Assembly: GCA_016178625.1 (NCBI GenBank)
Contig: JACOSX010000055.1
Coordinates: forward strand, 1-60,090
Length of the DNA stretch: 60,090 nt
Reading direction: 5' to 3'
Origin: Ignavibacteria bacterium
GTDB taxonomy: Bacteria > Bacteroidota > Ignavibacteria > UBA10030 > SZUA-254
The notes beneath the pieces were generated by a model. It was not told the origin of the DNA. It saw only the letters and a program-made list of their open reading frames with translations, and did no database searches. The translations under genes and the position numbers were made by a program. Below, piece by piece: positions 8,341-11,909 of the stretch. The first letter of the stretch is position 1; every line of letters starts with the position of its first letter.

Positions 8341-10614
8341 TCACGGGGAAAGCTGGTGTTCTGCTCTTCGGCCGAGGGTGAAGGCTGTTCGTCGTTTTCT
8401 CATTCCCCTAATCTGATAATGCTTCTGTAATTGCTCAAGATCATACCCAAACGGCGAGAGCAAAGTCTCCACCGCCTTCAGAAATAACTCAGTGTACTTC
8501 TCAATGTCGTATCCATCCTCGTGTTGGTAGGTGAGAAGGCTCTTCGCCTTTTGCGGATCTCGCTTTCCTGTTTGATCGATGATGATGAACTCGATCATCT
8601 CTCCCGGCTGAACATGTACGCCGAACTGTGCAAGCTCTTTGACGACCATTGCATTGAGGTTGTTGTTCGCATACTCGTCAGCCTCTTTCTGAATTTTTTT
8701 CCGCAGCACAAGTTCTTTTGGGTCAACGCGGCCATCGCGTAATTCACTGAGATAAAATTTCACTTCGTTGAGAAGCTCTGGAACGAGGTCTCTTATCTCG
8801 CGAATACTGTGGGCGTTCGAGAGCATCTCAAGGAGTTGTGCTTGCATGTTCTTGATATAGATGGGCGTGTCTCTCCTTCTTGTTTCGATGCCGCGCATTT
8901 TGATGTCGCCATGATCGTACCAGCCAACGTATTTGCCGGCAGTTGAGATGCCGGGATCGGTTTTTGAGCTGGGGAAGAGAATCCAGTGATAGATGCCTTC
9001 AAGGGAGATATCAACCCCCGCGGCATTCTTGATCTGTGCACACAACTGATGGTAGTCTTCATGTGTCGCTCCTTCTTTTTTTAACCATAGACAATCAATA
9101 ATGGCGTGAACGAGATGGTACCCGTTTGCTTCAGCAATCTCTTTTGCAATGAGTAGTGTTTCGCGTGAGAACGCATTGACCGCTTCATGTGCCTCAATTC
9201 GTCCGAAGCGTGCATTCTTATAACCTAAGTAGCCAAAACACGTTACAAGCATCCACTTCAGTGCATTTTGTCTTCGGTCATACTTCTGACGTTCCTGCAA
9301 TGTCGGTGCTGTTTTCTTCCGCGCTTTGTAGTACGCGCGTTTTTCAAGAACAGGCTTTAATGTTATCGGAACAATCCCGCGGCGCTTCTCGCAAATCGTA
9401 TAGCCAAGTTCCGGCACCTTGCTGTTGTGACAGCACGAGCAGTTGATGGTCTCCGGGCTGATGTTGTGCATTGCCATCAGACTTGGATACATGCTTGCGA
9501 AGTCCAATTCAGCAATATCCTCGTGATAGCCGAGCTCAGGCAGGAAGACAAGCCCGCCTCGATCGCTCAAGAGTAATTCATCGGCAGTTTTGAAATCCTC
9601 ACCTTCTTTTTTCTCAGCAGGGATGAGAATATTGTTGCGATAGGCATAGCTCATCTGCATGCTTGCCAACCCTGTACCGATTGATGCCCGTGATTGTTTC
9701 TGCATCGGTATTTGTGCTAAGCGGGCGATGTCCATTGTGCCTTCGATGTTTGATTCACCCATAAAGAAACTGTTTTCAGTATCAATGTGCCAACGACCTG
9801 CAAGCATGAAGGCAGCATCCCGGTGGATGATCTGCCCGTAGGTCCAGTAGCTTCGTTCCTTCATGTGAATATAGCCGTGTGATTGGTCCCGATTTAACAG
9901 TAAAGGAATACGGTGCTTCAACGATGCACCGACAAGTGCGGGGAAGAGCGTGGCATCGCCCCACGACGACATGATGACATCGGGATCGTAATGGTAGAGA
10001 TGCCAGTTCAATGCTTCAAGCACATCGACGGGATAATCCTGCTCGATGGAATATGTTGTACCGTCGTAGGTGAGTTCCAAATTGATTGTCCTGAAAAATC
10101 TTGTCGACGATCTTCCATTGTCTAATGTCATGATTTTAAGATCGGGAACATTGTACTCCAAAGCATCAAATGAATCTTCAAGGATCATGTGCTGAAGTAT
10201 GTTATTGTCGGAGATATCGAATGTACAGCGGGCTAAGGGAAAGATTTGTTTGTCGTACAGGTACATTTGTGCCACTGGGATGTTGCTATTGTAGAAAACA
10301 AAATGTGGAAAGAATTTTTGGAATGTCCACACACAGCGGTTCAACTGCAAAGGGTCGTGTACGGTAATTTTGGTGACGTCCCATTCTTCACCGCTGAAGA
10401 GCTCCAACTTTCGTTCTTTCCCGATCGTTGCAGGAAGGTTAAAGCGTTGCACGAGTACAGGTATACGTTTCTCATCGCTCGCATCAAGACGGAGATACAA
10501 TGACGGACGAAACGGGTGAAAGCAGTGGTATGCTCTGCCATCGTCTCCAATGAACCAGACGCTCATTCCGCTGCGGACAGGATAGACGTCGAAGAACCAA
10601 CCATGGATCATCAT
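8341..10614 (-). CDS. family B DNA polymerase-like protein with altered catalytic motifs
   Basis: 757 aa; motif A DFASMYPSLM, motif B region KWMLVTCFGYLGYKNARFG, motif C region HAIIDCLWL, and RGIETRRRDTP. Exo I and Exo II acidic residues not recognisable. Confidence 0.87.
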   Translation of the reverse strand: MMIHGWFFDVYPVRSGMSVWFIGDDGRAYHCFHPFRPSLYLRLDASDEKRIPVLVQRFNLPATIGKERKLELFSGEEWDVTKITVHDPLQLNRCVWTFQKFFPHFVFYNSNIPVAQMYLYDKQIFPLARCTFDISDNNILQHMILEDSFDALEYNVPDLKIMTLDNGRSSTRFFRTINLELTYDGTTYSIEQDYPVDVLEALNWHLYHYDPDVIMSSWGDATLFPALVGASLKHRIPLLLNRDQSHGYIHMKERSYWTYGQIIHRDAAFMLAGRWHIDTENSFFMGESNIEGTMDIARLAQIPMQKQSRASIGTGLASMQMSYAYRNNILIPAEKKEGEDFKTADELLLSDRGGLVFLPELGYHEDIAELDFASMYPSLMAMHNISPETINCSCCHNSKVPELGYTICEKRRGIVPITLKPVLEKRAYYKARKKTAPTLQERQKYDRRQNALKWMLVTCFGYLGYKNARFGRIEAHEAVNAFSRETLLIAKEIAEANGYHLVHAIIDCLWLKKEGATHEDYHQLCAQIKNAAGVDISLEGIYHWILFPSSKTDPGISTAGKYVGWYDHGDIKMRGIETRRRDTPIYIKNMQAQLLEMLSNAHSIREIRDLVPELLNEVKFYLSELRDGRVDPKELVLRKKIQKEADEYANNNLNAMVVKELAQFGVHVQPGEMIEFIIIDQTGKRDPQKAKSLLTYQHEDGYDIEKYTELFLKAVETLLSPFGYDLEQLQKHYQIRGMRKRRTAFTLGRRAEHQLSP

Positions 10615-10871
10615 GCGGGTAGTATTGTATGTTGTTCTGCCGCCTCGAGGCGCCTAATTTTTTTATACTGTTCAAGAAGCATACTCATGAGAATAGTTTC
10701 AAGGGGCACTTCCTTCGCAATGAATGCGCCGGCGGCAAGGTGGAGCTTCGGGGCTCTCCACATCTCGTCAAATAATAGTTGGTCTTCTTTTCTTAGTGCT
10801 CGTCGAAACTTTCCCCATGCTTCTTTGTTCCTGTCGATGATGAGCGTGAAGGTATCGTTGTTGCGTCCCAT
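10611..10871 (-). CDS. small hypothetical protein, translationally coupled to the PolB-like gene
   Basis: 86 aa, charged/helical; stop overlaps PolB start by ATGA; GGAGAA ribosome-binding-like sequence upstream of ATG. Confidence 0.7.
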   Translation of the reverse strand: MGRNNDTFTLIIDRNKEAWGKFRRALRKEDQLLFDEMWRAPKLHLAAGAFIAKEVPLETILMSMLLEQYKKIRRLEAAEQHTILPA

Positions 10872-10975
10872 AATTGTGTTCTCCGTTGTTCGTGAAGGTG
10901 AATTTCATTATTGACATACTCCAGGATCGTCACACGGTCAGCTGCATGTTGGAGGAGATGAAAGAGCGTTCCTTT

Positions 10976-11488
10976 TCATGGTGGTGTACGAGCCACTTCG
11001 ATATCTGCGACGAGAACGTTAATGTTTTTGTCGACTAGTGCTCTCAGCATTTGGATGATGCGGTGGAGACTTCGCTGACATTCCAACGGCTTGACCTGTT
11101 CATCGTAGTATGTATCGAGCATCCCCAGAATGATCACACTGCGACAGGAAGTATTGGCAATGAAGCGGGGAAGCTTTATGGTAATCGCTGCCTCGGTCTG
11201 AAATGCTGTGAATGATCGCGTGACGTGTGTTCGTGCAAGAAGAGCTTTCGGAGGAAGAGCGAGGAACCTTGCAATCCGCGAAAGAGTATAGCTATTGAAC
11301 TTCATTGCGCCATCAATAACTGCAAGAGGTTGTCGTGTAGCGCTGCCAATAGCAAGTCCGAATGTATATACGCTTGAGTGACCATGCATCAGGTGAAGAG
11401 ATGCCGGACGTTCATGAAAACGGCGTATGGCACCATCTAACCCTGCACATGATTGAAGCTCTACAATTTCCGATTGCCCAAAACTCAT
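10976..11488 (-). CDS. RecA/RadA-like protein lacking a recognisable Walker A motif
   Basis: 170 aa; overall pattern (HLMHGHSSVYTFGLAI...PLAVIDGAMKFN...VIILGMLDTYYDEQVKPLECQRSLHRIIQMLRALVDKNINVLVADIEV) resembles a RadA/Rad51 core with GxxxxGKT missing. Confidence 0.55.
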   Translation of the reverse strand: MSFGQSEIVELQSCAGLDGAIRRFHERPASLHLMHGHSSVYTFGLAIGSATRQPLAVIDGAMKFNSYTLSRIARFLALPPKALLARTHVTRSFTAFQTEAAITIKLPRFIANTSCRSVIILGMLDTYYDEQVKPLECQRSLHRIIQMLRALVDKNINVLVADIEVARTPP

Positions 11489-11585: not shown

Positions 11586-11614
11586 ATGATACGACAAATA
11601 TGTCTTATTGTCAA
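11586..11614 (-). promoter_or_regulatory. predicted sigma70-type promoter for the RecA-like/PolB operon: TTGACA-N17-TATCAT
   Basis: Reverse strand reads TTGACA (11614-11609), 17 nt spacer, TATCAT (11591-11586), about 100 nt upstream of the ATG at 11488. Confidence 0.65.
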
Positions 11615-11909
11615 GAAAAAAATGTAATAAATGTCGTTATTGGGTCCACTGAAAGTACACGCGATTTAAGGGTAAGAATGTAGGTAATCTTGATCAGAAC
11701 GGCGCTAAGAGTGGAAGTAGCTATTCAGATGGGATTGGGAACGGTGGAGTTATTTCGGAGGTCGAGGGAGAAGAGATTTCCACATAAATCTTCCTTTTAG
11801 GCATACTGTCATCAATTTCGCTCATTTTGTTGCGAGTCGTACAAATTTTTAGTATATTTTTCACGCCCAAGCATTGAGTGGTGGATTAGTGATGAGTGTA
11901 TTGGGTTGG

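Follow-up and report, generated by a model that had tools for sequence, protein, structure and literature searches.

A PolB2 mutasome operon in an Ignavibacteria bacterium with a putative operator shared with a CI-type S24 repressor gene

The window analyzed here, 60,090 nucleotides of contig JACOSX010000055.1 from an Ignavibacteria bacterium, carries on its minus strand a three-gene operon that is an already recognized PolB2 mutasome and not a new system. The operon very probably helps the bacterium to copy across damaged DNA, and it is likely that a LexA-like repressor keeps it silent until damage releases it to make a translesion synthesis complex. The three open reading frames in the initial annotation were confirmed in position and strand, as was the ATGA overlap between the second and third. 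In the order iRadA-PPB2-PolB2, the genes and the polymerase motifs are:

10976..11488, minus strand: iRadA, an inactive RadA/Rad51 homologue, 170 aa as annotated, ending at an in-frame TGA (profile, AlphaFold and Foldseek)
10871..10975, minus strand: C-terminal part of iRadA, stranded behind the TGA at 10976-10978 (in-frame homology to relatives)
10611..10871, minus strand: PPB2 (arCOG07300-like), 86 aa, starting MGRN (27-member alignment; PHROG matches of 1.4e-6 and 5.1e-6)
8341..10614, minus strand: PolB2 DNA polymerase, 757 aa, frame intact (PF00136, E=1.9e-39; NF004418, a type-B polymerase model and the best in NCBIfam, E=7.6e-122 with a score below the model's curated cut-off; tree)
9481..9504, minus strand: PolB2 motif A, DFASMYPS, with D371 invariant in a 15-sequence alignment
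9094..9102, minus strand: PolB2 motif C, I505-I506-D507 (canonical DTD altered to IID), with D507 invariant in the same alignment

An operon of PolB2, arCOG07300 and an inactivated RadA is already known from archaea and from some bacteria, together with a link to LexA (PMC4104785). A pentameric PolB2-iRadA-PPB2(3) mutasome has since been predicted, with the bacterial gene order iRadA-PPB2-PolB2, an MGRT arm and the IID motif (PMC11791011). The present operon was assigned to this family because the genes and their order, the MGR start of PPB2, the IID form of motif C and a Rad51/RadA fold that lacks a P-loop all agree with those accounts, as do the links to DUF72, SRAP and LexA-type regulators. 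It differs from them in having MGRN in place of MGRT, in an iRadA that is cut by a TGA, in its apparent control by a CI-type S24 repressor and operator instead of canonical LexA, and in the presence of DinB in the operons of some relatives. The premature stop of the source genome and the regulatory switch appear to be new. The core idea of the initial annotation, a PolB-based accessory complex for translesion synthesis or mutagenesis analogous to known mutasomes, is what both papers had proposed for this same operon.

In a scan of one genome per species, the 80 loci kept came from Ignavibacteria-type Bacteroidota, deltaproteobacterial groups, Acidobacteria and archaea, among others. The genes followed the order iRadA-PPB2-PolB2 in 38 of the 39 bacterial loci whose upstream sequence reached 1.3 kb or more, so the order is not peculiar to this genome and the check on its conservation was passed. 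Close PolB2 relatives were present in 13 of 247 genomes in a phylum-wide sample, the source genome and 12 others. One related operon is split (G227; L163, C4:157900-168500): PolB2 lies about 6 kb from iRadA-PPB2 and has its own operator. Two Leptospira phage records, KF114879 (L165:2686-5942) and KF114878 (L166:2207-5259), hold all three genes in the order seen here, with iRadA and PPB2 annotated as hypothetical. A search of plasmids returned relatives that were all below 60% identity and, among the matches listed, all haloarchaeal.

The setting of the operon in the window is chromosomal, beside tRNAs and an alpha-amylase-like gene (named by eye). This setting bears on the ‘genome-defence’ option of the initial annotation, for which no support was found. 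An anti-phage or mobile-element system would be in keeping with the occurrence of the same three genes in phages of Leptospira, but it is extremely unlikely given the chromosomal neighbors, an operator that is common to SOS-type genes, and a PADLOC search that matched no defence-system family, its sole hit being a homing-endonuclease model over the polymerase region.

PolB2 is the only B-family polymerase found in the source genome, and in the tree it falls inside the bacterial PolB2 clade of Ignavibacteria-type genomes. The first position of motif C was Ile, Leu or Met in 85 of 85 sequences compared. The initial annotation regarded both recognizable proteins as degenerate in their catalytic motifs; this holds for iRadA, which has no P-loop, and only in part for the polymerase, which retains motif A and the second motif C Asp. 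From these retained residues, ‘inactive’ is a doubtful label for PolB2. The enzyme is probably active despite its altered motif C, since a Sulfolobus homologue that shares the IID motif is active and extends mismatches (PMC8764526, PMC11791011). That homologue, Dpo2 of Sulfolobus islandicus, is damage-inducible and needed for targeted mutagenesis (PMC7390963, PMC8764526). The present PolB2 resembles Dpo2 in its IID motif and its link to damage; Dpo2, however, is archaeal and its activity and lack of exonuclease were measured, whereas the bacterial protein is known from its sequence. The Glu of the Exo I DxE motif is replaced in a pairwise alignment, in a weakly aligned region where the other exonuclease motifs were not resolved. 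No beta-clamp motif was apparent by eye in the C-termini of iRadA or PolB2; such a motif occurs in a fraction of PolB2 mutasome members and is not required for membership.

A catalytically dead PolB2 that forms a regulatory or replication-initiation complex with iRadA, as was once suggested for archaea, would accord with the replacement of the first Asp of motif C and with the early literature, which described inactivation and a link to ORC2 in archaea (PMC4104785). The activity of the Sulfolobus enzyme, the invariance of the motif A Asp and the second motif C Asp, and the identity of the neighboring or co-regulated bacterial genes (LexA, DinB, DUF72 and SRAP, all damage-response genes) make this reading very unlikely.

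Single sequences of the two small proteins gave no useful match in Pfam, NCBIfam or PADLOC, and profiles were needed. The 170-aa iRadA, which had no useful match as a single sequence, was recognized through a profile of 28 iRadA sequences that matched archaeal RadA (PDB 4a6p, E=3.3e-10). Read through the TGA, iRadA is about 205 aa, lacks the N-terminal domain and has the character of the RadA-family partner. An AlphaFold model of the 205-aa form was of high quality (pLDDT 92.8, pTM 0.90), and its best Foldseek matches were Rad51, Dmc1 and RadA (best E=1.2e-9). The RecA-like fold proposed in the initial annotation therefore stood, and the P-loop was absent from the alignment of relatives. PPB2 adjoins PolB2, is small and has an MGRT-type N-terminal arm (here MGRN), as expected of the family; residues M1, G2, R3, W19, R24, L26, R27 and D30 were invariant in the 27-member alignment.

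The in-frame TGA cuts iRadA about 35 codons early. The frame stays open past the PPB2 start, its continuation aligns with relatives, and a tblastn alignment crosses the stop to query residue 206 in one of them (L003). A frameshift was considered and rejected, the defect being a single in-frame TGA. An extra coding meaning of TGA was set aside because the three closest relatives (L003, L016 and L017) have an ordinary Gly codon, GGC, at that position. The part lost behind the stop corresponds to the last helix and the beta-hairpin of the model. The locus thus does not have all three genes intact, which is a mark of a working locus and not of the family.

The TGA could be a base error or a real nonsense mutation. 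If real, the operon may be decaying in this genome, with the mutasome dead or PolB2 working alone. Besides the TGA itself, the amino acid identity of iRadA to its three closest relatives, which drops from 0.62-0.63 before the stop to 0.29-0.47 after it, points in this direction. However, the relatives themselves also diverge more in the C-terminal part of iRadA (0.47-0.68, compared with 0.75-0.79 before the stop position), the frames of PolB2 and PPB2 are intact, the promoter and first operator are intact, and one wrong base is possible in a draft assembly of 177 contigs. Decay is unlikely on this evidence, and we infer either a shortened iRadA that still functions or a base error at its stop.

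The promoter of the operon was examined for regulatory sites, with the following result:

11609..11614, minus strand: -35 element TTGACA (promoter scan, 11 of 12 positions matched, spacer of 17)
11586..11591, minus strand: -10 element TATCAT (promoter scan and conservation)
11589..11608, minus strand: putative operator O1, the 20-bp palindrome ATAAGACATATTTGTCGTAT, in the spacer between -35 and -10 and running into the -10 (matrix score 28.1 of 31.4; O1 is among the 12 sites used to train the matrix, and scores of training sites are not independent evidence)
11620..11639, minus strand: weak putative operator O2, in which one half-site is good, lying 31 bp farther upstream than O1 (score 9.3)

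Promoter-scan matches of such strength are expected by chance in a region so long, and conservation in relatives is the stronger evidence. The layout of promoter and operator recurred in 23 further rows of the comparison; L010/L022 and L008/L023 are each one contig listed twice, so that the palindrome ATACGACA-N4-TGTCGTAT lies within the operon promoter spacer in the window and in 21 distinct related loci. Most of these have a second operator 30-32 bp upstream, in some cases weak, with scores of up to 23.1. Most of the second sites, the first-site positions in L024, L025, L029, L032 and L043, and the sites at repressor genes are independent of the matrix training. All matrix matches scoring at least 16 in 825 kb of the relatives' loci were upstream of PolB2 operons.

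Across the 3.36 Mb source genome, ACGACAWWWWTGTCGT was found in 2 places when at most one mismatch was allowed, and the reversed-pattern control in 0. The two places for this pattern, ACGACA-W4-TGTCGT, are the PolB2 operon and a gene with HTH_3 and Peptidase_S24 domains. With two mismatches the scan was near background (19 sites, compared with 9 for the control), and a wider regulon is therefore not claimed.

The gene at the second place encodes the candidate repressor (G000:C122:33239-33904; L125, L133), a protein with a CI-type helix-turn-helix and an S24 domain and with the operator just upstream of its gene. Its domains (HTH_3 PF01381, 1.1e-11; Peptidase_S24 PF00717, 5.1e-25) are those of the non-canonical LexA type, as is the presence of the operator in front of both its own gene and SOS-type genes. 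An Ala-Gly pair and candidate Ser and Lys residues are visible in its sequence; counting against release of the operon by this repressor, the repressors of some relatives have VPGG at the expected Ala-Gly cleavage site. An operator common to a PolB2 operon and a CI-type S24 repressor gene goes beyond the published accounts, as represented by open-licence PMC papers, and looks new.

Repressor and operator occur together in the relatives. Orthologues of the S24 repressor were present in 9 of the 13 PolB2 genomes, all 9 of which have the operator at PolB2; the operator was found near PolB2 in 0 of the 4 genomes that lack the repressor. An exact test on these counts gives about 0.0014, which is not a true probability since the genomes are related. 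At the repressor genes, the upstream site scored at least 13.9 in 7 of 9, 15.8 in the eighth and only 11.1 in the ninth (G172). A LexA-type gene lies near the operon in three of the four repressor-less genomes. In G039 and G243 canonical LexA is directly upstream of iRadA; in G121 a LexA-like S24 gene, incomplete in the sequence examined, lies about 3.6 kb upstream with DUF72 between; and in G093 the contig is too short to see. Because the PolB2 of G121 nests among operator-bearing relatives in the tree, its position suggests that a separate loss or swap of operator and repressor may have happened at least once.

In other genomes the operator accompanies the orthologue of the repressor gene, two of these genomes having a divergent DUF72 gene there as well. 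One further site is at a DUF72 gene that has an SRAP gene nearby. One site in G055 adjoins a cupin-like gene (named by eye), so the list of targets is not purely one of repair genes.

Contig C15 of the source genome encodes another protein that has a LexA-type DNA-binding domain (G000:C15:6955-7059, L117; a 240-aa frame, 30.7 bits). This protein could be the regulator in place of the S24 repressor, or another regulator could bind the palindrome. The existence of a second LexA-type protein leaves room for such an arrangement, as does the co-occurrence of repressor and operator, which is correlational and partly phylogenetic. In the other direction, several genomes have the palindrome immediately in front of the S24 gene, as autoregulation predicts; the match of repressor to operator is complete in both groups of genomes, including G121 nested among operator-bearing ones; and no site turned up near the C15 gene when the genome was scanned for the palindrome with at most one mismatch. 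A regulator other than the S24 repressor is quite unlikely. Judged by these sequence patterns, the S24 repressor would be the protein that binds the putative operator.

No Y-family (IMS-domain) polymerase was detected in the whole source genome, which is 97% complete, whereas one was present in 12 of the 12 other PolB2 genomes sampled. A wider rule by which genomes of the phylum have either PolB2 or a Y-family polymerase was considered and does not hold, as those 12 genomes have both. The missing Y-family enzyme weighs against the translesion reading in this genome, as an extender depends on an inserter. In four relatives (L024:3771-4991, L025:3080-4297, L032:2718-3935 and L043:2829-4130), DinB (IMS matches of 2e-46 to 5e-45) is the first gene behind the operator and iRadA-PPB2-PolB2 follow. 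A DUF72-like gene comes after DinB in L025 and L032, with weak Pfam support; L043 has a similar open reading frame, and none was seen in L024. A further locus, L029, has kept the DUF72-like gene and has no intact DinB. The joining of DinB and PolB2 in one operon would fit an inserter-extender pair, and its occurrence in these four relatives appears to be a new addition to the accounts in open-licence PMC papers.

The best explanation for these observations is an operon that is repressed by the S24 protein and released by damage. DNA damage would inactivate the LexA-like repressor, encoded elsewhere in the genome, through its self-cleaving S24 domain; the repressor would leave the operator inside the promoter spacer, and iRadA, PPB2 and PolB2 would be made together. 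PolB2, without proofreading, would then extend mispaired or lesion-blocked primer ends, with iRadA docked on it in the role of a Rad51-like subunit and a probably trimeric PPB2 placing its MGR N-terminal arm near the PolB2 active site. The outcome would be translesion synthesis, paid for in mutations. The gene identities and order, the conserved motifs, the RadA fold, and the operator with its sharing by the repressor gene were observed here. Polymerase and extender activity, the architecture of the complex (a prediction) and damage induction, known in archaea, come from the literature on homologues, by which induction of the operon by damage would be expected in this bacterium also.

The proposed control of the operon is like that by the non-canonical LexA of Bacteroidetes (PMC8565304), in which a protein with HTH_3 and S24 domains replaces LexA, with an operator at its own gene and SOS-type targets. 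This likeness is one of analogy. The operators described there are GGA-N5-TCC or CTAA-N5-TTAG, unlike the present ACGACA-N4-TGTCGT with the PolB2 operon as its target, and that paper makes no mention of Ignavibacteria or Chlorobi. The ImuA-ImuB/DnaE2 and Pol V mutasomes likewise combine a damage-induced error-prone polymerase with a RecA-family partner, but their polymerase family and small subunit are different. The operon is not a member of that group: ImuA-ImuB/DnaE2 systems pair a Y-family-like ImuB with the C-family DnaE2, whereas the polymerase here is of family B and no IMS-domain protein to serve as ImuB was found in the whole genome.

On balance, the evidence leans towards a broader proposal, namely that the PolB2 mutasome of Ignavibacteria-type Bacteroidota may be a main output of an SOS response that has evolved anew. 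The place of LexA would have been taken by a CI-type S24 repressor, which, through the spacer operator and a further one some three helical turns upstream, would control its own gene and the PolB2 operon, the latter headed by DinB and DUF72-like genes in some species; in the source genome, no dedicated translesion polymerase other than PolB2 would be present. The operon carries a recent structural prediction over to a further bacterial lineage. With the regulatory finding, two questions can be put to the test: how SOS control is rewired once another repressor stands in for LexA, and whether a B-family extender can be enough for a bacterium that has no Y-family inserter. The exact operator sequence and the repressor gene are now on hand for such tests.
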